Assembly: GCA_022843165.1 (NCBI GenBank)
Contig: JALHOD010000024.1
Span: 1 to 41,360, forward strand
DNA from: Pseudorhodoplanes sp.
Lineage (GTDB): Bacteria; Pseudomonadota; Alphaproteobacteria; Rhizobiales; Xanthobacteraceae
Direction of reading: 5' to 3'
Length of the DNA stretch: 41,360 nt
Positions 27,000-41,360 of the stretch are shown here, one piece after another. Under the pieces are notes generated by a model. That model did no database searches. It was not told the DNA's origin and saw only the letters and a list, made by a program, of their open reading frames with translations. Made by a program: the position numbers and the translations under genes. Within the stretch, counting starts at the first letter, position 1. The number at the start of each line of letters is the position of its first letter.

Positions 27000-28970
27000 A
27001 TGAAATTTCTCGATAATCTCAAAATCTCCGTGAAGGTCGTTGCGCTGCTCGGTCTTCTGGCCGTTGCAACCAGCTTTCTCGTCATCGAGAGCAGCCGGAA
27101 AATGGGCGCGATGAGCGCAGCCTTCGACGAGATGGCGTTCAAGCTCGCGCCCGCCCGGCTGGAAGTGACCCGCGCCACGCGTCAGGCCACCAATATCGGG
27201 TTCGGGGCGTTCCGGACGATCGGTCTTGATATCGGCTCCGAGCAGGCCAAGAAGGGCGTCTTCGACGTCGATGACGGCTACAAGCGCGCCGTCACCTTCC
27301 TCGGCAACGCCGCCAAGGCGAATCCCGAGAACAAGCCGACCTACGACAAGTTTCTCGGCTATTTCAAAAGCCTGCACGAGACCGCGCGCAAGGTGATCGA
27401 TCTCAGCCAGAAGGACATCACCGAAGCCACAACGGTCATGCAGGAGGCCGAGAAGCAGATCGACAAGATTCTGAAGGAAATGATCGCCTTCACCGGCCAG
27501 CTCGAGAAACAGACCAATGAGATGGCCACAACGACATCGGCATCCACGCACTCCGCCATCGTGCTGAACATCCTGATGGGCTTCTCGGCCTTGCTGATCT
27601 GTCTCAGCCTCGGCATCTGGATCGCGACGTCCAAGGTTTCAAAGCCCCTGGTGCAGTTGGCCCAGCGCATGGGCGTGCTCGCGCATGGCGATCTGAGTGT
27701 CGACATCGACGGCCAGCAGCGCGGCGACGAGGTCGGCATCATGGCGCGGGCCGTGCAGGTGTTCAAAGACAATGCGGTGGCGCTCAAGACGGCCGAAGCG
27801 GAGGCCGCAGACCAGCGCCGCGCCGCCGAAGCCGAACGCGCCCGCAACGAGACGGCGCAACGCGAAGCCGCGCAGCAGGTGGCGCGCGTGGTGGAAGGTC
27901 TCGGCGCCGGCCTCGAGCGGCTGGCCCAGGGCGACCTGACCTATCGCGTCACCGACGAATTCGCCGACGAATACAGGAAGGTGCGCGACGATTTCAACGC
28001 CGCCATTGGCCAGTTGCAGCAGACCATCAAGAACATCGCGATGTCGAACAGCGAAGTGTCGAACGCGGCGTCGGAGATTTCCGCCAGCACCACGGATCTG
28101 TCGCAGCGCACCGAGGAGCAGGCCGCGAGCCTGGAGGAAACCTCGGCCTCGATGGAGCAGATTTCGGCCACGGTGAAGAAGAACGCCGAAAACGCCCAGC
28201 ACGCCAACCAGCTCACGCAGGGCACGCGCGACGTCGCCGATCGCGGCGGCGCGGTGGTGGCGCAGGCGGTCACCGCCATGGCGCGGATCGAGGAGTCCTC
28301 GCGCAAGATCGCGGACATCATCAGCGTGATCGACGAGATCGCACGCCAGACCAACCTGCTGGCGCTCAATGCTGCGGTGGAGGCGGCGCGCGCCGGCGAG
28401 GCCGGCCGTGGTTTCGCTGTGGTGGCCTCGGAAGTGCGCAGCCTAGCGCAACGCTCGTCGCAGGCGGCCAAGGATATTAAGGATTTGATTACGAATTCCT
28501 CCGGGCAGGTGAAGGAGGGCGTCGATCTCGTCAACAAGGCCGGCGCTTCACTCAACGAGATCGTGGAATCGATCAAGAGCGTTGCTACCATCGTGGCCGA
28601 CATCGCTTCAGCCTCAACCGAACAGGCCTCCGGCCTCGACCAGATCAACCGCGCGCTGAACCAGATGGATCAGGTGACGCAGCAGAACTCGGCTCTGGTC
28701 GAGGAAAATGCCGCCACCGCCAAGACCCTGGAAGACCAGCAATCGGCCATGAGCGAACAGGTCGGCTTCTTCCGCTTCGACGAAGGCGGCGAGGCGTCCA
28801 TCCCCGCTGCGGCGGCAAAGGCCACGGCTACCGCCCTGCGGAGCCCGGCGAAACCGAAAGCGGCTGCCCCGGCGCCGCCAGCGGACGGCGGCAATCGCGG
28901 CCCGGTCGGGCGTTTGCAGGCCAATCTGGCCACCGCGCTGAAGCAGGACGCGGATTGGCAGGAGTTCTGA
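27000..28970 (+). CDS. methyl-accepting chemotaxis protein 1, transmembrane
   Basis: Inner-membrane chemoreceptor of 656 residues. TM1 about 10-28; an all-helical periplasmic sensor about 29-182 (four-helix-bundle type, ligand unknown); TM2 about 183-208. A HAMP domain ([20 protein letters not shown]) follows, then a second HAMP-like unit ([13 protein letters not shown], about 300-350). The MA signalling hairpin has tip [20 protein letters not shown], which binds CheA/CheW. A flexible Ala/Pro linker leads to the terminal DWQEF, which fits the xWxxF tether for CheR/CheB. Start at [13 protein letters not shown]. An intrinsic terminator follows, so it is probably transcribed apart from the next gene. 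Confidence 0.95.
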
Positions 28971-29045
28971 TGCGACAGTGCATGGGACATAGCCACGCGG
29001 AACATTTGTATTTTAAGTAAATTCTAATTTTTGGCGTGAAATAGT

Positions 29046-29094
29046 GGGCCGCTCTCGCGCAGCTTTGACTGCGCCGGATGCGGCCCTTTTCGTT
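29046..29094 (+). terminator. intrinsic terminator after MCP 1
   Basis: Two-part stem GGGCCGC/GCGGCCC enclosing GCGCAG/CTGCGC, followed by TTTTCGTTT. It lies 75 nt past the MCP 1 stop. Confidence 0.75.
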
Positions 29095-29191
29095 TGCAGG
29101 GCGCGCGCGGGCCCGGCCCGACTGGAATCCAACTGGGAATGGAAATGGGAATTTTTCGCTAACTGGCCACTGCGCCGTGAGGACCATGCTG

Positions 29192-31147
29192 ATGATCAAG
29201 CTTCCGACCTTGTCGATTTCCACCAAGCTTTACGCCTTGTTCGCGCTGCTCGGGACCTTGACGATCATTCTGGCCGGATACGCGGTGTACAATTCCCGCC
29301 AGAGCGCGGTCCTTTCGCAAAATCTGGAATCCGCTTTTGCCGGCGCGCAGAATGTGGAGCGCGTGAACAGCCTGATCTACGCCGTTGTGATGGAGTCGCG
29401 CGGGGTCTACATGTCTCCCGACACCAAGACAGCCAAGAGATACGGCGACAATCTGCTGAAATTCAACGGCCAGATCGCGGATGTGGTCAAGGATTGGCAG
29501 CGCGTCGTGCAGGCTGACGATGCTGCCCAGTTCGAGACCTTCTCGAAACGAATCGCGCAGTTCCAGGAGTTTCGCCGTGAACTCGCCAGGCTTGGCAGCG
29601 AGGTCAGTCCGGCCGCAGGACGCGAATACGGTGACAACGAGGCCAACCGCAGCGTGCGGACGGCCCTCAACAAGGACATCGAGGCGCTGGCCCAGCTGTA
29701 CAAGCAGCGGGCGCAGCGGATCAACACAGAACTCGAAAATGCCATCAACCGGATGTCGATCGTGATGGGCGTCCTTGGCGTGATCTCCCTGCTGTGCGCG
29801 GTGTGTGGCGTGCTCATCACCTGGCGCAGCGTGATCCGCCCCTTGGCGCGGCTGGTTCATACCATGGGCGTTCTGGCACAGGGCAATCTGACGGAGGTGG
29901 TCGACGGGCAGCAGCGCAGCGACGAGGTCGGCAGCATGGCCAAGGCCGTGCAGGTGTTCAAGGACAACGCCCTGGCGCTGAAGGAGTCCGAGGCGCAGGC
30001 GGAAGCGCAGCGCCGCGTGACGGAAGAGGAGCGCGCCCGCAACGAGGCGGCCAAGGCCGCTGCCGCGCAGCAGGTGGCGCGCGTGGTGGAAGGTCTCGGC
30101 GCCGGCCTCGAGCGGCTGGCCACGGGCGATCTGACCTACCGCGTCACCGACGAATTCGCCGACGAATACAAGAAGGTGCAGGACGACTTCAACGCCGCTA
30201 TCGGCCAGTTGCAGGAAACCATCAAGAATATCGCCCAGTCGACGTCGGAAGTCTCCAACGCCGCGTCCGAAATCACCACCAGCACCACCGATCTGTCGCA
30301 GCGCACCGAGGAACAGGCCGCCAGCCTGGAGGAAACCTCCGCGTCGATGGAACAGATCTCGGCCACGGTGAAGAAGAACGCGGAGAATGCCCAGCATGCC
30401 AACAAGCTGGCGCAGGGCACGCAGGAGATCGCCGATCGCGGCGGCGCCGTGGTGGCGCAAGCGGTGACGGCCATGGCCCGGATCGAGGAATCCTCGGGCA
30501 AGATCGCCGACATCATCAGCGTGATCGACGAGATCGCACGCCAGACCAACCTGCTGGCGCTCAACGCGGCGGTGGAGGCGGCGCGTGCCGGCGAAGCCGG
30601 CCGCGGCTTCGCGGTGGTGGCCTCGGAAGTGCGCAGTCTTGCCCAGCGCTCGGCGCAGGCGGCCAAGGACATCAAGGATCTGATCACCAACTCGTCCGGT
30701 CAGGTGAAGGACGGCGTCGAGCTTGTGAACCGCGCCGGCGCCTCGCTGAACGAGATCGTGGAATCGATCAAGAGCGTCGCCACCATCGTGGCCGACATCG
30801 CTTCGGCCTCAACCGAGCAGGCCTCGGGGATCGACCAGATCAACAAGGCACTGAACCAGATGGACGAGGTGACGCAGCAGAACTCGGCTCTGGTCGAGGA
30901 AAATGCCGCCACCGCCAAGACCCTGGAAGACCAGCAGCTGGCCATGAGCGAGCAGGTCGGGTTTTTCCGCTTTGGCCAGCCCACCGGCGAAGCCTCTGAA
31001 ACCTCAGAGGTTGTGGCGATGCCGCGCCCGGCACCGGCAAAGGCCGCATCCCGGCCGGCGTCGAAGGCCGCCATTGTGCGGCGCGGAAGGGCGGGCGGCG
31101 GCGCCGCGGCGGCCTTGGCCGAGGACAAGGAATGGCAGGAATTTTAA
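29192..31147 (+). CDS. methyl-accepting chemotaxis protein 2, transmembrane
   Basis: Inner-membrane chemoreceptor of about 651 residues. TM1 about 9-33; a helical periplasmic sensor with [10 protein letters not shown], a block common in four-helix-bundle receptors of Alphaproteobacteria; TM2 about 188-211. HAMP ([20 protein letters not shown]), second HAMP-like unit ([14 protein letters not shown]) and an MA domain almost identical to that of MCP 1 follow. The Ala/Pro/Arg-rich tail ends in EWQEF. GAGG before ATGCTGATG suits the second ATG (29192); the first (29186) is the alternative. A CheW gene starts 92 nt downstream and is probably co-transcribed. Confidence 0.94.
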
Positions 31148-31239
31148 ACTATTTCCGCCGCATGATGCGGGGGACAACGAGCTGCAGCGGCGTGTGATTC
31201 GCGCCGCGTTTGTAAAAGTTGCAACGAGTGGATGGAAAC

Positions 31240-31734
31240 ATGACAGCGCAGGCGATCGCCACGTCCGGACAGTCCGCGGCGGGCTGGAATGCGTCGGAGC
31301 AATCGGCCGACGCTTCAATTGGCACCGAACTGATCAGCTTCGCGATCGACAACGACCAGTACGGTGTCGACATCATGGCGGTGCGCGAGATCAAGGGCTG
31401 GTCTGAGATTACCCATCTTCCGAAACAGCCCGATTATGTGCGCGGCGTGCTCAATCTGCGCGGCGTCATGGTTCCGATCATCGATCTGCGCTGCCGGTTC
31501 GGTCAGGGACTGACCGAGGCGACGCCGATGCATATCGTGATTATCGTGCAGGTCGAGGACATGCAGGTGGGCCTGCTGGCCGACCGCGTGCTCGACATCG
31601 TGTCGTTTGAAGCCTCGCAGGTGCAGCCGGTGCCGCGCGCCGCGCAAAGCTCCCGCATCGATTTCCTGTCCGGCCTGGTGACGATCGAAGGCGGCATGAT
31701 CGCGGTCATCGATCTGCATCACCTGCTGTCCTGA
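31240..31734 (+). CDS. cheW: chemotaxis adaptor CheW (copy 1)
   Basis: 164-residue scaffold that couples chemoreceptors to CheA kinase. After a 30-residue variable N-terminus comes the CheW fold: ELISFAIDNDQYGVDIMAV, REIKGWSEITHLP, VRGVLNLRGVMVPIIDLR (the NLRG loop contacts CheA/receptor), then VGLLADRVLDIVSF. Start at MTAQAIATS follows GGATGGAAAC; a GTG-like longer start (31219) is less likely. It is nearly identical over the core to copy 2 at 35223. It sits between the membrane and the globin-coupled receptor genes. Confidence 0.96.
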   Translation: MTAQAIATSGQSAAGWNASEQSADASIGTELISFAIDNDQYGVDIMAVREIKGWSEITHLPKQPDYVRGVLNLRGVMVPIIDLRCRFGQGLTEATPMHIVIIVQVEDMQVGLLADRVLDIVSFEASQVQPVPRAAQSSRIDFLSGLVTIEGGMIAVIDLHHLLS

Positions 31735-31792
31735 TCCCCGGCCAGTTCCGGCAGGCCAGGTTCCAGTAAGCGTTGCGTCAATCCGCGTGCGG

Positions 31793-31844
31793 CGCGCACC
31801 TTCCGGTGCGCGTATCCTCACATCCGGAGCGCTGGCGGCGCTCC
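31793..31844 (+). repeat. two successive hairpins between cheW copy 1 and MCP 3
   Basis: First hairpin: CGCGCACC/GGTGCGCG with loop TTCC (31793-31812). Second: GGAGCGC/GCGCTCC with a 5-nt loop (31826-31844). No T-run follows. They may adjust relative expression of the two genes through mRNA processing or stability. Confidence 0.5.
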
Positions 31845-31866
31845 AATAACAAAACAGGTACTGGAC

Positions 31867-33498
31867 ATGTCCGAAGACCGGGCGCTGGCGCAACGTCTTG
31901 AATTCATGAAAATCGATGCCTCGTCGAAAGAGGCGCTGAAATCCCTCAAGCCGCTGATCGACAAGGAACTGCCCCGCGCGCTCGATATCTTCTACGCCCA
32001 GGTCAGAAAATTCCCCGACGTCGCCCGCCATTTCACCGACGAGGGCCATATCGGCAGGGCGAAAGACGCCCAGATTCGCCACTGGAGCAATATCAGCGGC
32101 GGGAATTTCGGCGACGATTACGCCCAGAGCAGCCGCGCCATCGGCCAGACCCATGCACGGATCGGTCTCGATGCAAGATGGTATGTCGGCGGATATGCGC
32201 TGATCGCCGAGCAACTGATCACGGCGGCGGCCGGCGAGCTCTGGCCGAAAGGCGCGTTCGGCGGCAAGGCCAAGAAGGCGGAATCTGCTGCCAGCACCAT
32301 CGCTGCGCTGGTGAAGGCGGTGTTCCTCGATATGGAGCTGGGCATTTCCGCCTATATCGACAGTGCCGAGGCCGCCCGCCGCGAGATGGAAGCCGCCCGC
32401 ACCGTTGCGATCCAGAACAAGACCGCGGCGATCGAGGCGTTGACCGCGGCGGTGTCGGATCTGGCGCAGGGCAATCTGCAGGCCCGCCTGACCGGAGAAT
32501 TCTCCGAGGAATATCGCGCGCTGCAGAACAACTTCAACAGCATGGCGGCGGGGCTGGAGGACGTGATCCGGGCGATCGCCGCCTCGACCTCGGAACTCGC
32601 CTCGGCGGCGGCGGAGATTTCGTCCAGCACCACCGATCTCTCCCAGCGCACCGAGGAACAGGCGGCCAGCCTGGAGCAGACCTCGGCCTCGATGGAGGAG
32701 ATTTCGGTCACGGTGAAGAACAACGCGGAGAACGCCACCCGGGCCAACGACCTGACCCGCGCCACGCGCGATGTCGCCGATCGCGGCGGCAAGGTGGTGT
32801 CGGAGGCGGTCGCCGCGATGAGCCGCATCGAGGATTCCTCGCGCAAGATTTCCGACATCATCAGCGTGATCGACGAGATCGCGCGCCAGACCAATCTTCT
32901 CGCGCTCAACGCGGCGGTCGAAGCCGCACGCGCGGGCGAGGCGGGCCGCGGCTTCGCCGTGGTAGCCTCGGAAGTGCGCAGCCTGGCGCAGCGCTCCTCG
33001 CAGGCGGCCAAGGACATCAAGGACCTGATCACCAGCAGCGCCGGCCAGGTGAAGGACGGCGTCGATCTGGTGAACCGCGCTGGCGCCTCGCTGAGCGAGA
33101 TCGTCGAATCGATCAAGAGCGTCGCCACCATCGTGTCCGACATCGCCAATGCCAGCAGGGAACAGGCGTCCGGCATCGACCAGGTCAACAAGGCGCTCAA
33201 CCAGATGGACGAGGTCACGCAGCAGAACTCGGCTTTGGTCGAGGAGAACGCGGCGACCGCCAAGACACTGGAAGAGCAGCAGGCGGCGATGAGCGAACGG
33301 GTCGGTTTCTTCCGCTTCGGACACGCCCAGACCGCAGTGGCCAAGCCGCGCGCCGCGGCCGCCAGGCCCGCTGTCCCGGCTCCCAAGCCGGCTCCCAAGC
33401 CGGCCCCGCGCGGTGCCATCCTGCGGCGCGACCGGCCGGCTTTGCCCACGCGCGGCGCCAATGCGCTGGCGGTTGACAACGACTGGCAAGAATTCTGA
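31867..33498 (+). CDS. globin-coupled methyl-accepting chemotaxis protein (MCP 3, HemAT-like)
   Basis: Soluble 543-residue receptor with no membrane helix. Residues about 1-160 are a protoglobin/globin-coupled sensor domain: [16 protein letters not shown] places Tyr43 as the likely distal ligand-contacting residue, and [18 protein letters not shown] places His96 as the proximal haem ligand. A HAMP-like unit ([17 protein letters not shown], about 195-240) and an MA domain with tip [20 protein letters not shown] follow. The Ala/Pro/Lys tail ([10 protein letters not shown]) ends in DWQEF. By family knowledge (HemAT) it senses O2, or CO/NO, for aerotaxis. Start MSEDRALAQ follows CAGGTACTGGAC. A strong terminator lies downstream. 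Confidence 0.94.
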
Positions 33499-33569
33499 GC
33501 CGGTCGCAGGGTCTATGGTGAAGTAGCCTATTAATTACTTTGGCAATGATCCGGCGCGATGCGCTGGAC

Positions 33570-33605
33570 ATGCCCGGAGCTTCGCTCCGGGCATTTTCTT
33601 TTTAA
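33570..33605 (+). terminator. intrinsic terminator after MCP 3
   Basis: 11-bp stem ATGCCCGGAGC/GCTCCGGGCAT with a 3-nt loop, followed by TTTCTTTTT. Strong Rho-independent terminator 71 nt past the stop; it separates the two halves of the island. Confidence 0.88.
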
Positions 33606-33764
33606 GTCATTGGACAGGATATGTTTTTGGGTGGGCAGCCTGAGCGGCGCCGTGGGCAAGGTGGGCGGCAATGGCGAGGAAGTGAAGCCCCCGATCCAGA
33701 ATGGTGTTTCAACTTGGGCGGGTGCGGGGTAATTTCACGGCACTGATTTGGATAATGGAATCAC

Positions 33765-34793
33765 ATGCTCATCCTGTTCGACGGAGAACTGGGACCGCGC
33801 GACACGCTTCGCTTTGTGGAGGAAAAGATCGGCGTTGGCCTGTGGAGTCTCGACGTCGATTCCGGCGCGATGAGGTGGTCGCCCGGCCTTTACGCGCTGC
33901 TGGGCCTGGAGTTTGGCGCCGTCGAGCCGACGCTCACGCTGTTCCGAAGCATGATGCATCCCGACGACCGGCTCAGCCGCGGCGACGTTGACCGGATTCT
34001 GAGGGGCGGCGCGTCGATCGACCGCGAATTCCGCATCATCCGCCGCGACGGCCGCATCCGCTGGGTCGCCAATCGCGGCGAGCCGGTGCTCAACAGCACG
34101 GGACAGGCGGCGCGGGCGATCGGCGTCATCTATGACATCACCGGCAAGCAGAACGCCCAAAGCGAACTACGCGCCAACGAGAAGCGCTACCGTACGCTCA
34201 CCAGAGCGGTCGCCACCATTGTCTGGCGGTCGCCGCCCGACGGCGAGGTGATTGATTTTCCCGAATGGCAGGAAATCACCGGTCAGTCCCAGTCGGAGAT
34301 CCAGGGGAAGGGATGGCTGGATGCCGTGCATCCCGACGACCGCGCTTACGTGGCGAACGCACGCGCGCGCTCGATCGCGCTGCGCACAACGTACAATGTG
34401 AACTATCGCGTCCGTCTGAAGGACGGCAACTATCGCTGGTTCAACGCGCGTGCGGCGCCGGTCCGTGGCCCGAACGGCGAACTGGTGGAATGGATCGGAA
34501 TCCTGATCGAAAACTTCTCGGCGCCCGAGGATGTCCGCATGAATGCCGGCGAACTGACCGGCGCACAGGCGCGGGCGGCGCGGGCGATTTTGAGCTGGAC
34601 CGTGAAGGACGTGGCCGTTGCGGCCAAGGTGTCGATCTCGACGGTGCGGCGGCTTGAGGACACGGACGGCTCCTCGCAACTGCGGGATGATCTGCGCGAC
34701 GCCATCAAGGCGGCGCTTGAAAAGGCCGGGGTGGAATTTCTGTATCTGCCGTCCGGGCCGCCAGCGGTCAGGCCGCGCCGGACTGCGCTGTAA
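33765..34793 (+). CDS. PAS-PAS sensor with C-terminal helix-turn-helix domain
   Basis: 342 residues, soluble. PAS 1 about 15-130 (VGLWSLDVDSGAMRWSPGLYALLGLE, HPDDRLSRGDVDRIL, DREFRIIRRDGRIRWV). PAS 2 about 138-260 (RTLTRAVATIVWRSPPDGEVI, GWLDAVHPDDR, YRVRLKDGNYRWFNARAAPV). A C-terminal HTH of the XRE-like type with a short DNA-binding unit about 268-330: LTGAQARAARAILSWTVKDV, AKVSISTVRRLED, then AIKAALEKAGVEFLYLP, the ending typical of small phage-repressor-like regulators. It lacks a kinase, receiver or GGDEF domain, so it is likely a one-component regulator whose ligand or cofactor is unknown. It sits alone between the two chemoreceptor modules and may control them. Confidence 0.85.
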   Translation: MLILFDGELGPRDTLRFVEEKIGVGLWSLDVDSGAMRWSPGLYALLGLEFGAVEPTLTLFRSMMHPDDRLSRGDVDRILRGGASIDREFRIIRRDGRIRWVANRGEPVLNSTGQAARAIGVIYDITGKQNAQSELRANEKRYRTLTRAVATIVWRSPPDGEVIDFPEWQEITGQSQSEIQGKGWLDAVHPDDRAYVANARARSIALRTTYNVNYRVRLKDGNYRWFNARAAPVRGPNGELVEWIGILIENFSAPEDVRMNAGELTGAQARAARAILSWTVKDVAVAAKVSISTVRRLEDTDGSSQLRDDLRDAIKAALEKAGVEFLYLPSGPPAVRPRRTAL

Positions 34794-35222
34794 TTGAGCG
34801 ATATCCGCCGGCTTCAGCGACCAAAAGAACAGTTTTTGTTCAAATCAGACGAAGACCGGCACGATGTGAGTGATTATTGCTCACGGGCGGAACCTGTGCT
34901 GAGACAAAAAAATCAACAGCATGTCAATGGTAAATCGGCAAACTCCGGATAGCTGAAAACTGCATTGGAATGTTGGGGGCCATGCATATGCGCACATTCG
35001 CCGCAATTTAATGTCGGCCGACGATCTGCGCGCGACATTCGCGATCGCGCAGGTTCCATTTGCCGCGTCTTTCACAGCGCGCATCAAACGCTTTTTAACA
35101 CGTCGTTCGGGCCGTGCTCCGAAAGGCGCAGGCGAGTCTGCGTCCGATTTACCTTGCACCAATTCGCCGCCCGTTAGGTCCCCGCCGCATTCATGTCGCT
35201 TGCTCAAGGAATAGGAAAGCAG
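34794..35222 (+). promoter_or_regulatory. 429-nt intergenic region upstream of cheW copy 2, with palindromes
   Basis: No convincing gene; short frames at 35011-35214 lack protein-like composition. Two dyads occur: GAACAGTTTTTGTTC at 34827-34841 (35 nt past the PAS-HTH stop; possibly a weak terminator) and GTGAG-N9-CTCAC at 34866-34884. Both are candidate operators for the upstream PAS-HTH protein. The region is locally AT-richer than its surroundings, which suits a promoter. Confidence 0.45.
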
Positions 35223-35771
35223 ATGTCACAGATGTCCGGAACGTCCGCCGCCGTGGATCAAGACAATCCCGCACGCCATCAGACGGTGGTGGAATCCGGC
35301 GACGCCGAATCGACCGAACTGATCAGCTTCGCCATCGGCGACGACCAGTATGGCGTCGATATCATGGCGGTGCGCGAGATCAAGGGCTGGTCGGAAATCA
35401 CGCACCTTCCCAAGCAGCCGGAATATGTGCGCGGCGTGCTCAACCTGCGCGGCGTCATGGTCCCGATCATCGACCTGCGCTGCCGGTTCGGCCAGGGCCT
35501 GACGGAGGCCACCGCGCTTCACATCGTCATCATCGTGCAGGTCGAGGACCGGCAGGTCGGCCTGCTGGCCGATCGCGTGCTCGACATCGTGTCGTTCGAG
35601 AATTCGCAGGTGCAGCCGGTTCCGCGCGTCGCCAGGAACGGCCGCATCGATTTCCTCGGGGGTCTGGTGACGGTCGAGAACGGCATGATCGCCCTGATCG
35701 ACCTGCCAAACCTGCTTTCGATTTCGGACGTTGCCGGGCTGGACGGTCCGACGCCCGGTAACGGCGACTAG
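35223..35771 (+). CDS. cheW: chemotaxis adaptor CheW (copy 2)
   Basis: 182-residue CheW with the same core as copy 1: ELISFAIGDDQYGVDIMAV, VRGVLNLRGVMVPIIDLR, EDRQVGLLADRVLDIVSF. It differs mainly in its N-terminal about 38 residues and a C-terminal extension of about 14 residues (DVAGLDGPTPGNGD). The ATG at 35223 is preceded by AGGAAAGCAG; in-frame ATGs at 35193 and 35232 are weaker. It is the first gene of a likely operon with the PAS receptor (60 nt gap), MCP 5 and the HD-GYP gene. Two CheW copies imply either dosage or a distinct pairing for each module. Confidence 0.96.
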   Translation: MSQMSGTSAAVDQDNPARHQTVVESGDAESTELISFAIGDDQYGVDIMAVREIKGWSEITHLPKQPEYVRGVLNLRGVMVPIIDLRCRFGQGLTEATALHIVIIVQVEDRQVGLLADRVLDIVSFENSQVQPVPRVARNGRIDFLGGLVTVENGMIALIDLPNLLSISDVAGLDGPTPGNGD

Positions 35772-35831
35772 CCGGACGGACGTTGGGCATCATTCGATTT
35801 TCTAACAAGAACACTGGATCCGGAGTTGAAC

Positions 35832-37691
35832 ATGTCTTGGCTCAACCGTTCGAAGGCGCAAGGCGACACTGCGGGCGGCCGCAAGGGAAGCTACAATCTC
35901 GACTATCTCAAGGGTCGGATTCCGGAAAACATCACCACGGCGGTGATGATGGTCGATCGCGATTTCATCGTGACCTATGTGAACCAGCCCACGACAGAGT
36001 TGCTCACGGCCAACGTCGATGCCTTCCGGAAGGCCTGGCCGACCTTCGACCCGAGCAAGATCGTCGGAACCTGCATCGACATGTTCCACAAGAATCCGGC
36101 TCACCAGCGCAAGATGCTGGCCGATCCGTCCCGCCTGCCGTTCAAGACCGAAATCACCATCGGAGACCTGAAGATCTCCCTGCTGGTGAACGCCAGCTTC
36201 GACAAGAAGGGCAATTACGTCGGCAACATCCTGGAATGGAAGGATGTGACCGAGGCCCGGCTGAACGAGGGCATGCTGGCTGCGATCAACAGGACGCAGG
36301 CGATGATCGAGTTCACGCTGGACGGCAAAATCGTCCATGCCAACGAGAATTTCCTGAACACGCTGGGCTATTCGCTCGACGAGATCAAGGGCCGCCACCA
36401 CAGCATGTTCGTGGAGCCGGGCTATGCCCAGAGTCCCGAATACAAGTTGTTCTGGGAGAAGCTCGGCCGCGGCGAGTTCGACGCCGCGCAGTACAAGCGC
36501 ATCGGCAAGGGCGGCAAGGAGGTCTGGATCCAGGCCAGCTACAATCCGATCCTCGATTCAAGCGGCCGCGTGTTCAAGGTCGTGAAATTCGCGACCGACA
36601 TCACGCCGATGCGGACGGCGGTGGAGCAGACCCAGGACGTGGTCACCGCCGCCAAGGGCAAGGATCTGACCCGGCGGATTCCGATGGCCGGCAAGACCGG
36701 CGAACTCGAAATGCTCTGCGGCGGCGTGAACGATCTGCTCGACACCATTTCGGCCGTGATGATCGAGATCAAGGATGCCTCGCGCGAAGTCTCCAATGCC
36801 GCGGCGGAAATCTCCACCAGCACCACCGACCTCTCCCAGCGCACCGAGGAACAGGCCGCCAGCCTGGAACAGACCTCGGCCTCGATGGAACAGATTTCCT
36901 CGACCGTGAAGAACAATGCCGAGAACGCCAACCGTGCCAACACCCTGACCCGCGGCACGCAGGACGTGGCGGATCGCGGCGGCCAGGTGGTGTCGGAAGC
37001 CGTCTCCGCCATGAGCCGGATCGAGGATTCCTCGCGCAAGATTTCCGACATCATCAGCGTGATCGACGAGATCGCGCGCCAGACCAACCTGCTGGCGCTG
37101 AACGCGGCGGTGGAAGCCGCCCGCGCCGGCGAGGCCGGCCGCGGCTTCGCGGTGGTGGCCTCGGAAGTGCGCAGCCTGGCGCAGCGCTCCTCGCAGGCGG
37201 CCAAGGACATCAAGGACCTGATCACCAGCTCGTCGAGTCAGGTTCAGGACGGCGTGCAGCTCGTCAACCGCGCCGGCACCTCGCTGAAGGAGATTCTGGA
37301 CTCGATCAAGGAAGTGGCCGTCATCGTCGCCGACATCACCAATGCCAGCGCCGAGCAGGCCTCCGGAATTGAGGAGGTCAACAAGGCACTGACGCAGATG
37401 GACGAGGTGACGCAGCAGAACTCGGCTCTGGTCGAGGAGAACGCGGCGACCGCCAAGACACTGGAGCAGCAATCCGCCGCCATGGACGCCCGCGTCGGCG
37501 CGTTCCGGCTCAGTGCCGGCGGAACGGGTTCGGCGCGTGCAGCGACGGTCACGCCGATAGCGCCGCGTGCGGCGCCGGTTGCCAAGAAACTTCCGGCGAA
37601 AACCGCGGCTGCGCCGGTGCGCGGCACGGCGCGCCAGATGCAGACGGCGCTTGCCGCCGCCGTCACGCAGGACGAATGGCAGGAATTCTGA
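35832..37691 (+). CDS. soluble double-PAS methyl-accepting chemotaxis protein (MCP 4)
   Basis: 619 residues, no membrane helix. PAS 1 about 30-140 ([38 protein letters not shown]) and PAS 2 about 148-255 ([57 protein letters not shown]) precede a HAMP-like unit ([20 protein letters not shown]) and the MA signalling domain. The tail ends in EWQEF. This is the layout of cytoplasmic redox or energy receptors such as AerC or BdlA; the PAS cofactor (FAD, haem or none) cannot be read from sequence. The ATG at 35832 has GGAG six bases upstream. MCP 5 follows after 35 nt. Confidence 0.94.
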
Positions 37692-37726
37692 GGATCACAC
37701 CGCTTCCCTCAATACTGGAGAATGTT

Positions 37727-39736
37727 ATGTCGATACTGAAAAAGTTCGCTTCGGATGTGCGCATATCCACCAAGATTGCCATTTCATCCGTATTTGGAAT
37801 CGTGCTCGTTCTGGCGATTGTCGGGATGCAGCTCTACGGCGATGGCAAGATCCAGGCAGCCAAAGTCAATGCCGACCGCGAACAGACCATCGTTGCGGAC
37901 GCCATCTATGCCACCTCGGCGTCACGCGGCATGCAGATCGCGGTGCGTGACCTGCGTCTCGCCGCGACGCCGGACGATATCCGTGGTGCGACGGAAAGGC
38001 TGGAGGCGCAGCGCAAGACGGCGGACGGCTATGCTTCGGAAGCGATCACGCTTATCAAGGCCTCCGGCCGGCCCGGCGAGAATGCCGCGAAACTGCAAGC
38101 CCAGATTGAGCAATATGCGGCCGGCGCCAAAGAGGTGGCGGCGTTGCGGCTCGAATACCTGACCTTGCTGGCCAAGGGCGAGTCGAGCGAGAAGATCGCC
38201 GATCTGCAAACCCGGGCCGCGTCGATTGTCCGCGAGCGCACCCTGCCGGCTGCGGTGGAAATGGACGTCGCCGCTGCCAAGATGATCGAGATGGCGCGCG
38301 GACAGGTGGCGGCGGAAAACGAAGCCTTCACCAGCACCCTGGCGACTGTCGAACTCATCAATGAATCATTGGCCGGTGTGGTGATCTTCGTTCTGATCGG
38401 CACCGCCGTGTTCATGTTCTTCACCGTCATCCGGCCGATCCGCGCCCTGACCGGCGGCATGCGGGAGCTTGCCGAAGGCAATTTCGACGTCGTGTTGCCC
38501 GGCGTCGGCCGCAAGGACGAGATCGGCGGCATTGCCGGGGCGGTCGATACCTTCAAGATCAAGCTCGAGGAGAAAATGCGCCTCGATGCCGAGAAGGAGC
38601 AGGAGATTGCGCGGCGCGAACAGGCGGAACGCGACGAGCGCGCCCGCAAGGACGCCGAGAATGCCCGGATGGTGGCGCAGGTCGTGACCGCGCTCGGGGA
38701 GGGACTGGCAAATCTCGCCAAGGGCGATCTGACCTACCGCGTCACCGACGAATTCGCGGCCGAGTACAAGAAAGTGCAGGACGACTTCAACGCCGCCATC
38801 GGCCAGTTGCAGGAGACGGTGAAGAATATCGCGATGTCGTCGTCGGAAATTTCCAACGCGGCGGCCGAAATCTCCACCAGCACGACCGATCTCTCCCAGC
38901 GCACCGAGGAACAGGCCGCCAGCCTGGAAGAAACCTCGGCCTCGATGGAGCAGATCGCGGCGACGGTGAAGAAGAACGCCGAGAACGCCCAGCACGCCAA
39001 CAAGCTGACCCAGGGGACGCAGGAGGTCGCCGATCGCGGCGGCGCCGTGGTGTCGCAGGCGGTCACCGCCATGGCGCGCATCGAGGATTCCTCGCGCAAG
39101 ATCTCCGACATCATCAGCGTGATCGACGAGATCGCGCGCCAGACCAACCTGCTGGCGCTCAACGCGGCGGTGGAGGCGGCGCGTGCCGGCGAAGCCGGAC
39201 GCGGATTTGCGGTGGTGGCCTCGGAAGTGCGCAGCCTGGCGCAGCGTTCTTCGCAGGCGGCCAAGGACATCAAGGACCTGATCACCGGCAGCGCCGGCCA
39301 GGTGCAGGAAGGCGTCGAACTGGTCAATCGCGCGGGTGCCTCGCTCGCCGAGATTGTCGAATCGATCAAGAGCGTCGCGGCCATCGTGGCAGATATCGCT
39401 TCCGCCAGCGCCGAACAGGCCTCCGGCATCGACCAGATCAACAAGGCGCTCAACCAGATGGACGAGGTCACGCAGCAGAACTCGGCCCTGGTCGAGGAGA
39501 ATGCCGCCACCGCCAAGACCCTGGAAGACCAGCAATCGGCGATGAGCGAGCAGGTCGGGTTCTTCCGCTTTGGCGGCAATGACGGTGCAGGGGCAAGTGC
39601 GGATCATGCACCGGCCAGGCGCACAGCTCCCGCATCCACCCCGGCGGCCAAGCCGGCTGCGCAGCGCACCCGGCCCGCGCTCCGCACCGCCGGCGCCACC
39701 GCGCTTGCGGCCAATCCGGACTGGCAGGAATTCTGA
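37727..39736 (+). CDS. methyl-accepting chemotaxis protein 5, transmembrane
   Basis: Inner-membrane chemoreceptor of 669 residues. TM1 about 15-36; an all-helical periplasmic sensor of about 175 residues, unlike those of MCP 1 and 2 in sequence and rich in Ala; TM2 about 214-234. HAMP ([20 protein letters not shown]) is followed by a charged coiled coil ([20 protein letters not shown]), a second HAMP-like unit ([17 protein letters not shown]) and the MA domain. The Ala/Pro/Thr tail ends in DWQEF. GGAGAATGTT precedes the ATG. It lies 35 nt after the PAS receptor gene and is presumably co-transcribed. Confidence 0.95.
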
Positions 39737-39745
39737 TTGCAACGA

Positions 39746-39774
39746 CCGGCGCGGCGGGTGATCCGCCGCGCCGG
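39746..39774 (+). repeat. 12-bp hairpin between MCP 5 and the HD-GYP gene
   Basis: CCGGCGCGGCGG pairs perfectly with CCGCCGCGCCGG around GTGAT, 10 nt past the MCP 5 stop. No T-run, so it may only attenuate transcription into the HD-GYP gene. Confidence 0.5.
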
Positions 39775-39821
39775 ACCGGAGGTGGGAGAACAATCGACGA
39801 TTGGGAAACCGGGGGCGACCG

Positions 39822-40934
39822 ATGCGCAATGTGCTTTTGCTGGCGGACCGCCACGCCGACGGCGCCTGGCTTCAGTACAAGATCAGCAAGGTCCGGCCTT
39901 GCCGGTTTGTGTCCATCCATGACGTGACGACGGACATTCCCGACATCGGCCTCATTGTCGCTGACGTGGCGCTGGACAATGAAGTCCTGGTGAAATTCCT
40001 GCGGCTGGCGCTGGAGCGGCACCGGGCCGCGAATACGCCGCTCCTGTGCCTGGTGAAAAACAAGACACATCAGACCCGGACGCAGGCCTATGCCATCGGC
40101 GCGACGGATGTTCTGCTTGCGGATTCGCCGACGCCTGTCCTGATCAGAGCCATCACGAAACTGATGGATCCGAATGACCGTTCCGCTGACACCGTGCCGG
40201 ACGACAGCGACGAGGCTTTCATGCTGCGCTCCGTACACGAAGCCGGCGCAGCTCTCACCGACATCATGGATGCGGCCGGACGCGATGCGGCGATTGCACC
40301 CGATGTCGTTGCGGCGGGCGCCGCGTCCGTCCTGGAGGCGTGCCGGAGATTCGACATCCGCGCCTGGCTCGACATCGTGTGGAACTACGACGACGTCACC
40401 TATCAGCATTGCCTTCTGGTCACCGGACTTGCGGCGGCCTTCGCCATCAAGCTCGGGTTCAATGCCGCCGATTGCCAGCGGCTCACATCGGCGGCGCTGC
40501 TGCACGATATCGGCAAGGCGAAGATTCCGGTCAACATCCTGAACAAGCCGGGCCGCCTGACCGACGACGAAATGAAGATCATACGGACGCATGCCGAGAT
40601 CGGCGCGAACCTGCTCGCGGAGCAGGGCGGGTTCGAAGACGACATCGTGTCGGTGGTGCGCCATCATCACGAACATCTCGACGGGGCCGGATATCCGGAC
40701 GGCCTGCATGCGGCGGACATCCCCGATATCGTCCGGCTCACGACCATCTGCGATATCTATGCGGCGCTGATCGAACGGCGTTCCTACAAGGAGCCGATGA
40801 GTCCGGACAGCGCGTTCGCGATTTTGCAGGACATGAAAGGCAAGCTCGATCCCGACCTGACGGCCTTTTTCCATAACGTGATGCTTGATTGCCGTGGCGG
40901 AGAATCGACACCCCCCCTGGCCCAGTACGCCTGA
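39822..40934 (+). CDS. HD-GYP domain protein with degenerate receiver
   Basis: 370 residues. Residues 1-115 look like a receiver domain: IGLIVADVALDN keeps an Asp at the phospho-acceptor place, but the acidic pair is reduced (LLADRHADG) and the Lys of the usual TKP block is replaced (GATDVLLADSP), so normal phosphorylation is doubtful. Residues about 185-350 are an HD-GYP phosphodiesterase: YQHCLLVTGL, LLHDIGKAKIPVNILNKPG (HD metal ligands), HHHEHLDGAGYPDGL (GYP block) and ICDIYAAL. All metal-site and GYP residues seem intact, so hydrolysis of cyclic di-GMP is likely. ATG at 39822 follows GGGGGCGACC. It ends the receptor operon and could link it to motility or biofilm control. Confidence 0.9.
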   Translation: MRNVLLLADRHADGAWLQYKISKVRPCRFVSIHDVTTDIPDIGLIVADVALDNEVLVKFLRLALERHRAANTPLLCLVKNKTHQTRTQAYAIGATDVLLADSPTPVLIRAITKLMDPNDRSADTVPDDSDEAFMLRSVHEAGAALTDIMDAAGRDAAIAPDVVAAGAASVLEACRRFDIRAWLDIVWNYDDVTYQHCLLVTGLAAAFAIKLGFNAADCQRLTSAALLHDIGKAKIPVNILNKPGRLTDDEMKIIRTHAEIGANLLAEQGGFEDDIVSVVRHHHEHLDGAGYPDGLHAADIPDIVRLTTICDIYAALIERRSYKEPMSPDSAFAILQDMKGKLDPDLTAFFHNVMLDCRGGESTPPLAQYA

Positions 40935-41360
40935 CCTCGGCCGCCTGCGGCGGGAACTGGACGCATTGCCCGGGCCCGGGCGATGTGCGCTGGCGCGCGT
41001 GCCGCGCCGCAATAATCACAGGACCGATGCCGGAATTAGGCGGTCAGTAATTCTTTCACCCTAGATTCCGTCAAGGCTGACGGTCTGCCGGCAAAAACGA
41101 ATCGCCGGCATCGGCGTCACCGAGTATTCAGGCGACCCGTTCTTCTCCCGCAACGCAGCGACGGAGAACGGTGAAGCCCTGTCAGGACTACGAAGGCCGG
41201 GTGGCTTGCGGGATTTTCGCGGCCAGCAAGCGGATCGTCCGGTCTTTAGGAAATCTGGCGCAGTGTTGCCAAGGCGGCCGGGCCCGGCCGCATTCACAGC
41301 CTCGCCATATCAGTGCCTGCAGGCCCGGTCGGCCCAGCATGATTCAATTTGACGCGGCGG
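40935..41360. other. 426 nt at the right edge with no supported gene
   Basis: Contains a 14-nt perfect palindrome GCCCGGGCCCGGGC at 40968-40981, possibly part of a transcript end for the HD-GYP gene. Short frames on either strand do not look like proteins. No tRNA was recognised. Confidence 0.4.

Follow-up and report, generated by a model that had tools for sequence, protein, structure and literature searches.

A block of chemoreceptor genes that carries no kinase gene raises the question of which kinase it serves and where that kinase is encoded. Such a block, called the island here, lies at positions 27000-40934 of the window, the whole stretch of 41,360 nucleotides that was analysed from contig JALHOD010000024.1 (C24) of a Pseudorhodoplanes genome (GCA_022843165.1, Xanthobacteraceae). 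A preliminary description made from the DNA letters had listed nine plus-strand genes for five methyl-accepting chemotaxis proteins (MCPs), two CheW coupling proteins, a PAS-PAS-HTH protein and an HD-GYP protein, and had proposed that they serve as an additional input array to a CheA whose gene lies elsewhere. The nine-gene make-up is borne out by our own gene calls, in which gene starts are approximate, and by Pfam, which places MCPsignal in five of the proteins, CheW in two, PAS in two, a protoglobin sensor in one and HD in one; the Pfam domain search detected no cheA, cheR, cheB, cheD or cheY within the block. The count of five receptors holds for the window and falls short for the island, because C24 continues with two more receptor genes, MCP6 and MCP7, that the window end at 41360 cuts off, and the full island has seven. 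The proposal of an outside kinase is supported. The operon at C6:154.9-161.8 kb probably supplies its kinase and adaptation proteins, and the island would then be the receptor half of an F7-type chemosensory system. We make this assignment because four lines of evidence agree: receptor length class, CheW identity, co-occurrence across relatives and gene order.

The genome assembly (3.87 Mb, 37 contigs, 96% complete) was searched for che loci, and two CheAs were found in two che operons, both on contig C6 and apart from the island contig. A che operon just past 41360 had been named in advance as evidence against an outside kinase; none is present in the remaining 9 kb to the contig end. The operon at C6:154.9-161.8 kb has the order CheW, CheR, CheD, CheB, a STAS/REC protein, CheA and CheY, and its CheA (C6:159213-161390) consists of Hpt, dimer, ATPase and a single CheW domain. 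The second CheA (C6:11175-13781) carries two stretches of CheW domain and ends in a REC domain. A ChpT-like gene precedes it, and downstream of its operon are a gene like ctrA and several for the flagellum (FliI-like ATPase, FHIPEP, FliG, FliF and FlgD). The names ChpT and CtrA are labels for the corresponding Pfam matches. Scored against 6s1k, the C6:159 kb CheA reaches 471 bits and the other CheA 322 bits. The C6:159 kb system resembles the F7 description and the C6:11 kb system the F5 description, as outlined in excerpts of PMC8429497 and PMC6759762. The former has the expected F7 components, with CheA, CheW, CheR, CheB, CheY and CheD in the operon and 36H receptors paired to it through co-occurrence and gene order in relatives. 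Two small proteins encoded beside this operon (L024:12312-12821 and L024:11843-12286) are kept in most relatives read. They have no Pfam or NCBIfam match, and calling the L024:12312-12821 protein CheZ-like is a guess.

The island receptors are assigned to the 36H class by their hairpin length, which is that of E. coli MCP I. For the signalling domain of MCP3, gap-free alignments run over 242 residues to 8c5v and 224 to 1qu7, two MCP I structures that are both presumably E. coli Tsr, and the domain is 28 residues shorter than 2ch7, which we take to be a 44H receptor. The seven island signalling domains also align with one another without gaps. Sixteen MCP genes in the genome score above the Pfam cut-off: the seven of the island, one island-type gene on contig C9 and eight others. 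The eight island-type proteins have 155-158 residues across the 172 positions of the Pfam model, which amounts to a deletion of some 14, and seven of the eight others are without that deletion (0-3 residues short) while the last exceeds the model stretch. A model of the island-type domain gives these eight others 46.7-75.4 bits, and no frame among them ends in W[QE]EF. The tether motif x-[HFYW]-x2-[HFYW] stands at the tail of 7/7 island receptors and is absent from the C9 receptor and the eight others. The C9 gene (L025:6586-8445) encodes the lone 36H-type receptor outside the island, the sole one of the eight so placed. The 36H class is predicted for F7 systems and 38H for F5 systems in an excerpt of PMC6759762, and the signalling domains fit the class expected for one of the two resident CheAs, with 36H corresponding to the F7-like kinase.

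The coupling proteins point to the same operon. CheW1 is 68% identical to the CheW of the C6:154.9 kb operon and 25% identical to that of the other operon, and CheW2 is 80% identical to the former over 139 residues. Identities of the island CheWs to the CheW of the C6:11 kb operon are 25-27%. A CheW tree separates the two kinds with support of 100/100 and does not resolve the origin of the island CheWs.

Co-occurrence was measured in a sample of 119 family genomes, with 19 and 9 candidates scored per genome. A CheA ortholog was called at a best E below 1e-180 (the next genome stood at 1e-128) and a 36H receptor at E <= 1e-50. By these thresholds 17 genomes have an F7-like CheA ortholog, 22 have 36H receptors, 16 have both and 96 have neither. 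Receptors of this class are found in 16/17 genomes with the F7-like CheA versus 6/102 without it (Fisher p 4e-14, uncorrected for phylogeny), and G036 is the sole genome with the kinase and no 36H receptor. The two components are co-present or co-absent in the sampled members of the genera g1, g3, g9, g35 and g43, and g12 and g45 are mixed.

Gene order was read in all 17 genomes; the first five relatives had been picked for a receptor match near CheA, and the other nine, added later, brought in the two empty slots from outside the genus. The operons of G085 and G036 are cut off by the contig start, hence 15 are readable. A 36H receptor adjoins CheR in ten of these (G110, G089, G009, G079, G051, G087, G080, G012, G062 and G015), and nine of the ten receptors have a CheW on the other side; in G015 the contig begins inside the receptor gene. 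The receptor in the G110 slot has the same PAS-PAS-36H build as MCP4 and is preceded by a CheW 75% identical to CheW2. The CheW-CheR slot holds no receptor in this genome and its two congeners (G000, G007 and G005; 192-332 bp), or in G061 and G033. The simplest reading of these gene orders is that receptor genes left, or were lost from, the F7-like operon on more than one occasion and sit in separate blocks in this genus.

Several observations weigh against this assignment. Six genomes (G018, G039, G066, G099, G115 and G121) have 36H receptors and no F7-like CheA, so the link between receptor and kinase is not strict unless assembly gaps explain them. By a dimer-domain model five of the six have one CheA and G039 has none; G099 gave a second, unlisted match in one of the two co-occurrence scans. 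The empty slot is not restricted to the genus, as G061 and G033 demonstrate. The beta-loop of the operon CheR is two residues longer than that of 1af7, and the arginines of the tether-binding stretch are not at the aligned positions. The flagellar genes that were found adjoin the C6:11 kb operon, and the pairing of receptor, CheW and CheA, which we judge likely, is a prediction from sequence. As a separate matter, the 36H domain is matched 16 times in G099 and 14 times in G115, yet the dimer-domain model finds one CheA in each, of the other kind, a pattern that reflects either an assembly gap or a real kinase change.

Relatives with 36H receptors and only the other CheA would also fit mixed base plates, in which the island receptors signal through both the F7-like C6:159 kb CheA and the F5-like C6:11 kb CheA, by analogy with Che4 and Che1 of Azospirillum brasilense. 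Excerpts of PMC6759762 and PMC8561660 report that the 36H and 38H arrays of that species both need CheA1 and CheA4 and that a 36H receptor binds both kinases in two-hybrid assays. Such sharing is unlikely in the present genome: the two CheW kinds are as far apart as their identity of 25-27% indicates, and 36H receptors are missing from 96/102 genomes that lack the F7-like CheA. The location of the flagellar genes beside the other che operon has a second implication, namely that the F7-like CheA and the island could steer something non-flagellar, as F7 systems of the gammaproteobacterial Aer2/Che2 kind do. In an excerpt of PMC7184735, flagellar control is preceded by F7 clusters that include an Aer2-like 36H receptor. 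We consider a separate output improbable, as the C6:154.9 kb operon includes CheY together with the STAS/REC protein, the island membrane receptors look like ordinary periplasmic sensors, and A. brasilense Che4, itself an F7 system, is described in the available excerpts as controlling swimming reversals.

The lack of a kinase in the block and the unlike gene content of the islands in G000 and G007 could be taken as signs of a functionless, decaying remnant. This explanation is very hard to credit, given that the reading frames are intact, the receptor tips and tails are retained, the partner operon is complete and G007 retains an island with common flank genes and seven orthologs.

If the island is the receptor half of the F7-like system, the membrane receptors MCP1, MCP2, MCP5, MCP6 and MCP7 and the soluble haem-type O2 receptors MCP3 and MCP4 would assemble on the C6:159 kb CheA together with the operon CheW and the island's CheW1 and CheW2. 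The operon CheR, CheB and CheD would carry out adaptation of the island receptors, and an oxygen/energy and solute signal would pass via CheY and most likely reach the flagellar motor. The island probably expanded as receptor (and CheW) genes, detached from the operon, duplicated in tandem, and at least one signalling tip was likely copied between receptors. A bolder scheme, which we regard as doubtful, is that the genus took the F7 operon apart and moved a receptor-CheW module to a growing island, each soluble haem-type receptor standing behind its own CheW; these two receptors, with their CheWs, could then make up a cytoplasmic array devoted to oxygen, with one CheA in common with the membrane array. 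The assignment turns a kinase-less receptor block into testable wiring, with seven receptors, two of them oxygen-sensor-like, assigned to one of two kinases. If the CheWs beside the haem receptors prove specific, they would be a natural example in which subsets of receptors use one kinase by way of different coupling proteins; an excerpt of PMC12654446 raises this possibility for Agrobacterium.

The oxygen-sensing role that the preliminary description had suggested was evaluated in the two soluble receptors. The MCP3 globin aligns to HemAT 1or4 (E 9e-9) with Tyr43 (distal) and His96 (proximal) at the aligned haem-pocket positions, and MCP3 has the make-up of a HemAT globin-coupled receptor, a Protoglobin domain that has both the proximal His and the distal Tyr and is joined to an MCP output. 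The roles of the proximal His and distal Tyr in a globin receptor are treated in PMC13401364, seen in excerpt. The first PAS domain of MCP4 matches 6ceq (E 9e-24), 3vol (4e-21) and 4hi4 (8e-18), and it retains FHKNPAHQR and a Trp near its end, as in an Aer2-kind haem PAS. 6CEQ and 3VOL are Aer2 haem-b PAS structures (PMC8694187, in excerpt). MCP4 is not classed as Aer2 proper, since its score of 463 bits against the NCBIfam aer2 equivalog is far under the cut-off of 1200. The HemAT-like globin and the Aer2-like haem PAS thus sustain the oxygen-sensing claim as far as domain type goes, and MCP3 and MCP4 are putative haem-type O2 sensors whose ligands we infer from these matches.

Receptors with the same sensor types were surveyed at the best locus in 30 of 68 matching genomes for the globin and in 30 of 61 for the Aer2-type PAS. 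Three of the 30 globin loci (this genome, G007 and G005) have a full 36H domain, and all three have an island-kind CheW <=1.5 kb away. One is intermediate (G188, no CheW), and 26/30 are of another signalling-domain class, none with an island-kind CheW that near. The full 36H domain occurs at 6/30 Aer2-type PAS loci, of which three have a nearby CheW; the G181 locus, cut off by the contig end, has a CheW, and 23/30 are of another class with no CheW (0/23). By these locus counts, CheW linkage follows the 36H class and not the sensor type.

The features of the island, including those beyond the window, are listed in Table 1.

Table 1. Genes of the chemoreceptor island; coordinates up to 41360 are window positions and those beyond are positions on C24
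Feature	Coordinates	Strand	Evidence
MCP1 membrane receptor, 36H, tail DWQEF	27000..28970	+	MCPsignal and HAMP; ungapped against other island domains; two membrane-like segments; G007 ortholog
MCP2 membrane receptor, 36H, tail EWQEF	29186..31147	+	Weak four-helix-bundle sensor match; two membrane-like segments; G007 ortholog
CheW1 coupling protein	31240..31734	+	CheW domain; G007 ortholog, 94%
MCP3 soluble protoglobin receptor, 36H, tail DWQEF	31867..33498	+	Protoglobin and MCPsignal; HemAT 1or4 match; no membrane-like segment; G007 ortholog
PAS-PAS-HTH protein, possible regulator	33765..34793	+	PAS_3 twice; weak HTH match under cut-off; G007 ortholog
CheW2 coupling protein	35223..35771	+	CheW domain
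MCP4 soluble PAS-PAS receptor, Aer2-like first PAS, 36H, tail EWQEF	35832..37691	+	Pfam; structure matches; no membrane-like segment
MCP5 membrane receptor, 36H, tail DWQEF	37727..39736	+	Two membrane-like segments; 188-bp identical tract with MCP7
HD-GYP protein	39822..40934	+	HD_5 match; N-terminal half without Pfam match
Branched-chain-type periplasmic binding protein	41564..42736 (L022:1565-2737)		G007 ortholog
MCP6 membrane receptor, 36H	42826..45687		Two membrane-like segments; G007 ortholog
MCP7 membrane receptor, 36H	45752..47686		Two membrane-like segments

Either CheW gene sits directly ahead of a soluble receptor gene, CheW1 before MCP3 and CheW2 before MCP4. Intergenic gaps measure 92 and 132 bp in MCP2-CheW1-MCP3, 60, 35 and 85 bp in CheW2-MCP4-MCP5-HD-GYP, and 89 and 64 bp in binding protein-MCP6-MCP7, and the PAS-PAS-HTH gene is flanked by 266 and 429 bp. 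The gaps suggest several transcription units: MCP1 alone, the PAS-PAS-HTH gene alone and the three groups just named. MCP7 is followed by two opposite-strand genes, presumably nitrilase- and amidohydrolase-like, before the contig ends at 50609. The binding protein gene is directly upstream of MCP6 with no transporter genes called alongside; the two stay together in G007, and the binding protein may feed MCP6. A foreign origin of the island is unsupported, with a GC content of 63.4% compared with 64.6% in the preceding part of the window and flank genes in common with G007.

The PAS-PAS-HTH protein is possibly the island's own regulator. Its HTH is a weak LacI-family match (22.5 bits versus a cut-off of 27), its C-terminal stretch is conserved in relatives, and the copy in the G007 island is 62% identical. 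A paralog on contig C7 (L134:4882-5907) is 48% identical, and some relatives carry at that site a homologue of a 404-residue protein encoded at the island flank; the genes beside the paralog are gatCAB-like. The HD-GYP protein has both catalytic motifs, HDIGK at residue 228 and HHHEHLDGAGYP at residue 281, and matches 4mcw, to which it was aligned, and 5z7c. A cyclic di-GMP output belonging to the array had been proposed for it. This output is unsupported because the HD-GYP gene is absent from the sister island of G007; Pfam finds no receiver in the N-terminal half and no coupling domain, and only position ties the protein to the array.

The island of G007 (C1:4344.9-4365.8 kb) is of like build and has the genes on one flank in common. 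It contains orthologs of MCP1, MCP2, CheW1, MCP3, the PAS-PAS-HTH protein, the binding protein and MCP6, plus further receptors and a CheW, with no in-place counterpart of CheW2, MCP4, HD-GYP or MCP7. The kinase-less block of G005 is smaller and holds one CheW and three receptors, of PAS-PAS, globin and MCP6-like type. These two comparisons indicate gene-by-gene turnover of the block, of which HD-GYP is no constant part. The 404-residue flanking gene led to no clean empty island site among G001, G017, G018 and G002. Its homologues in G001, G017 and G018 have no receptor in the fetched stretch and have gatCAB-like neighbours, and the G002 copy is at a contig end.

Over 188 bases MCP5 and MCP7 are identical in their signalling domains (window 39096-39283 and C24:47046-47233, L022). 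The run of 46 agreeing silent variable codons in this pair was reached in 0/2000 shuffles, and gene conversion of the signalling tip is the likely cause. A general homogenisation of the signalling domains was considered and not kept: fourfold-site identity is 0.66 within the island versus 0.56 between genomes, base composition at these sites differs between genomes, and only the MCP5-MCP7 pair clearly stands out. MCP4-MCP6 gives a marginal exchange signal (global p 0.031), and none of the G007 pairs passes.

Known systems share parts of this arrangement. A. brasilense Che4 (F7, 36H) is alike in its operon CheD, its 36H receptors and the presence of a second system with a REC-bearing CheA; in the excerpts available its receptor genes are inside the operon, whereas here the slot is empty and the receptors are in an island on another contig. 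Agrobacterium fabrum (PMC12654446) is alike in having CheW genes outside the che cluster, one of them directly upstream of a cytosolic receptor, and scattered receptors. It has one CheA, and the excerpt describes no large receptor block; the present genome has two CheAs, an operon that retains its CheW and seven receptors in one block. MCP4 shares the Aer2-kind haem PAS, the 36H domain and the tether tail with gammaproteobacterial F7 Aer2 receptors, as outlined in an excerpt of PMC7184735, but differs in its pair of PAS domains, with no poly-HAMP array among its Pfam matches. MCP3 is like HemAT in its Protoglobin-MCP fusion and in the haem-pocket His and Tyr, and differs in its 36H domain with tether tail and its adjacent CheW; 26 of the 30 globin receptors surveyed in the family are of another signalling-domain class. 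A kinase-less island of this make-up is not described in the titles or abstract openings of the literature searched. Because of the scattered receptors and CheWs of A. fabrum and the Aer2-type 36H F7 clusters of gammaproteobacteria, both seen in excerpt, the arrangement counts as one already known, and what is noteworthy here is the empty operon slot combined with the pairs of CheW and haem receptor.

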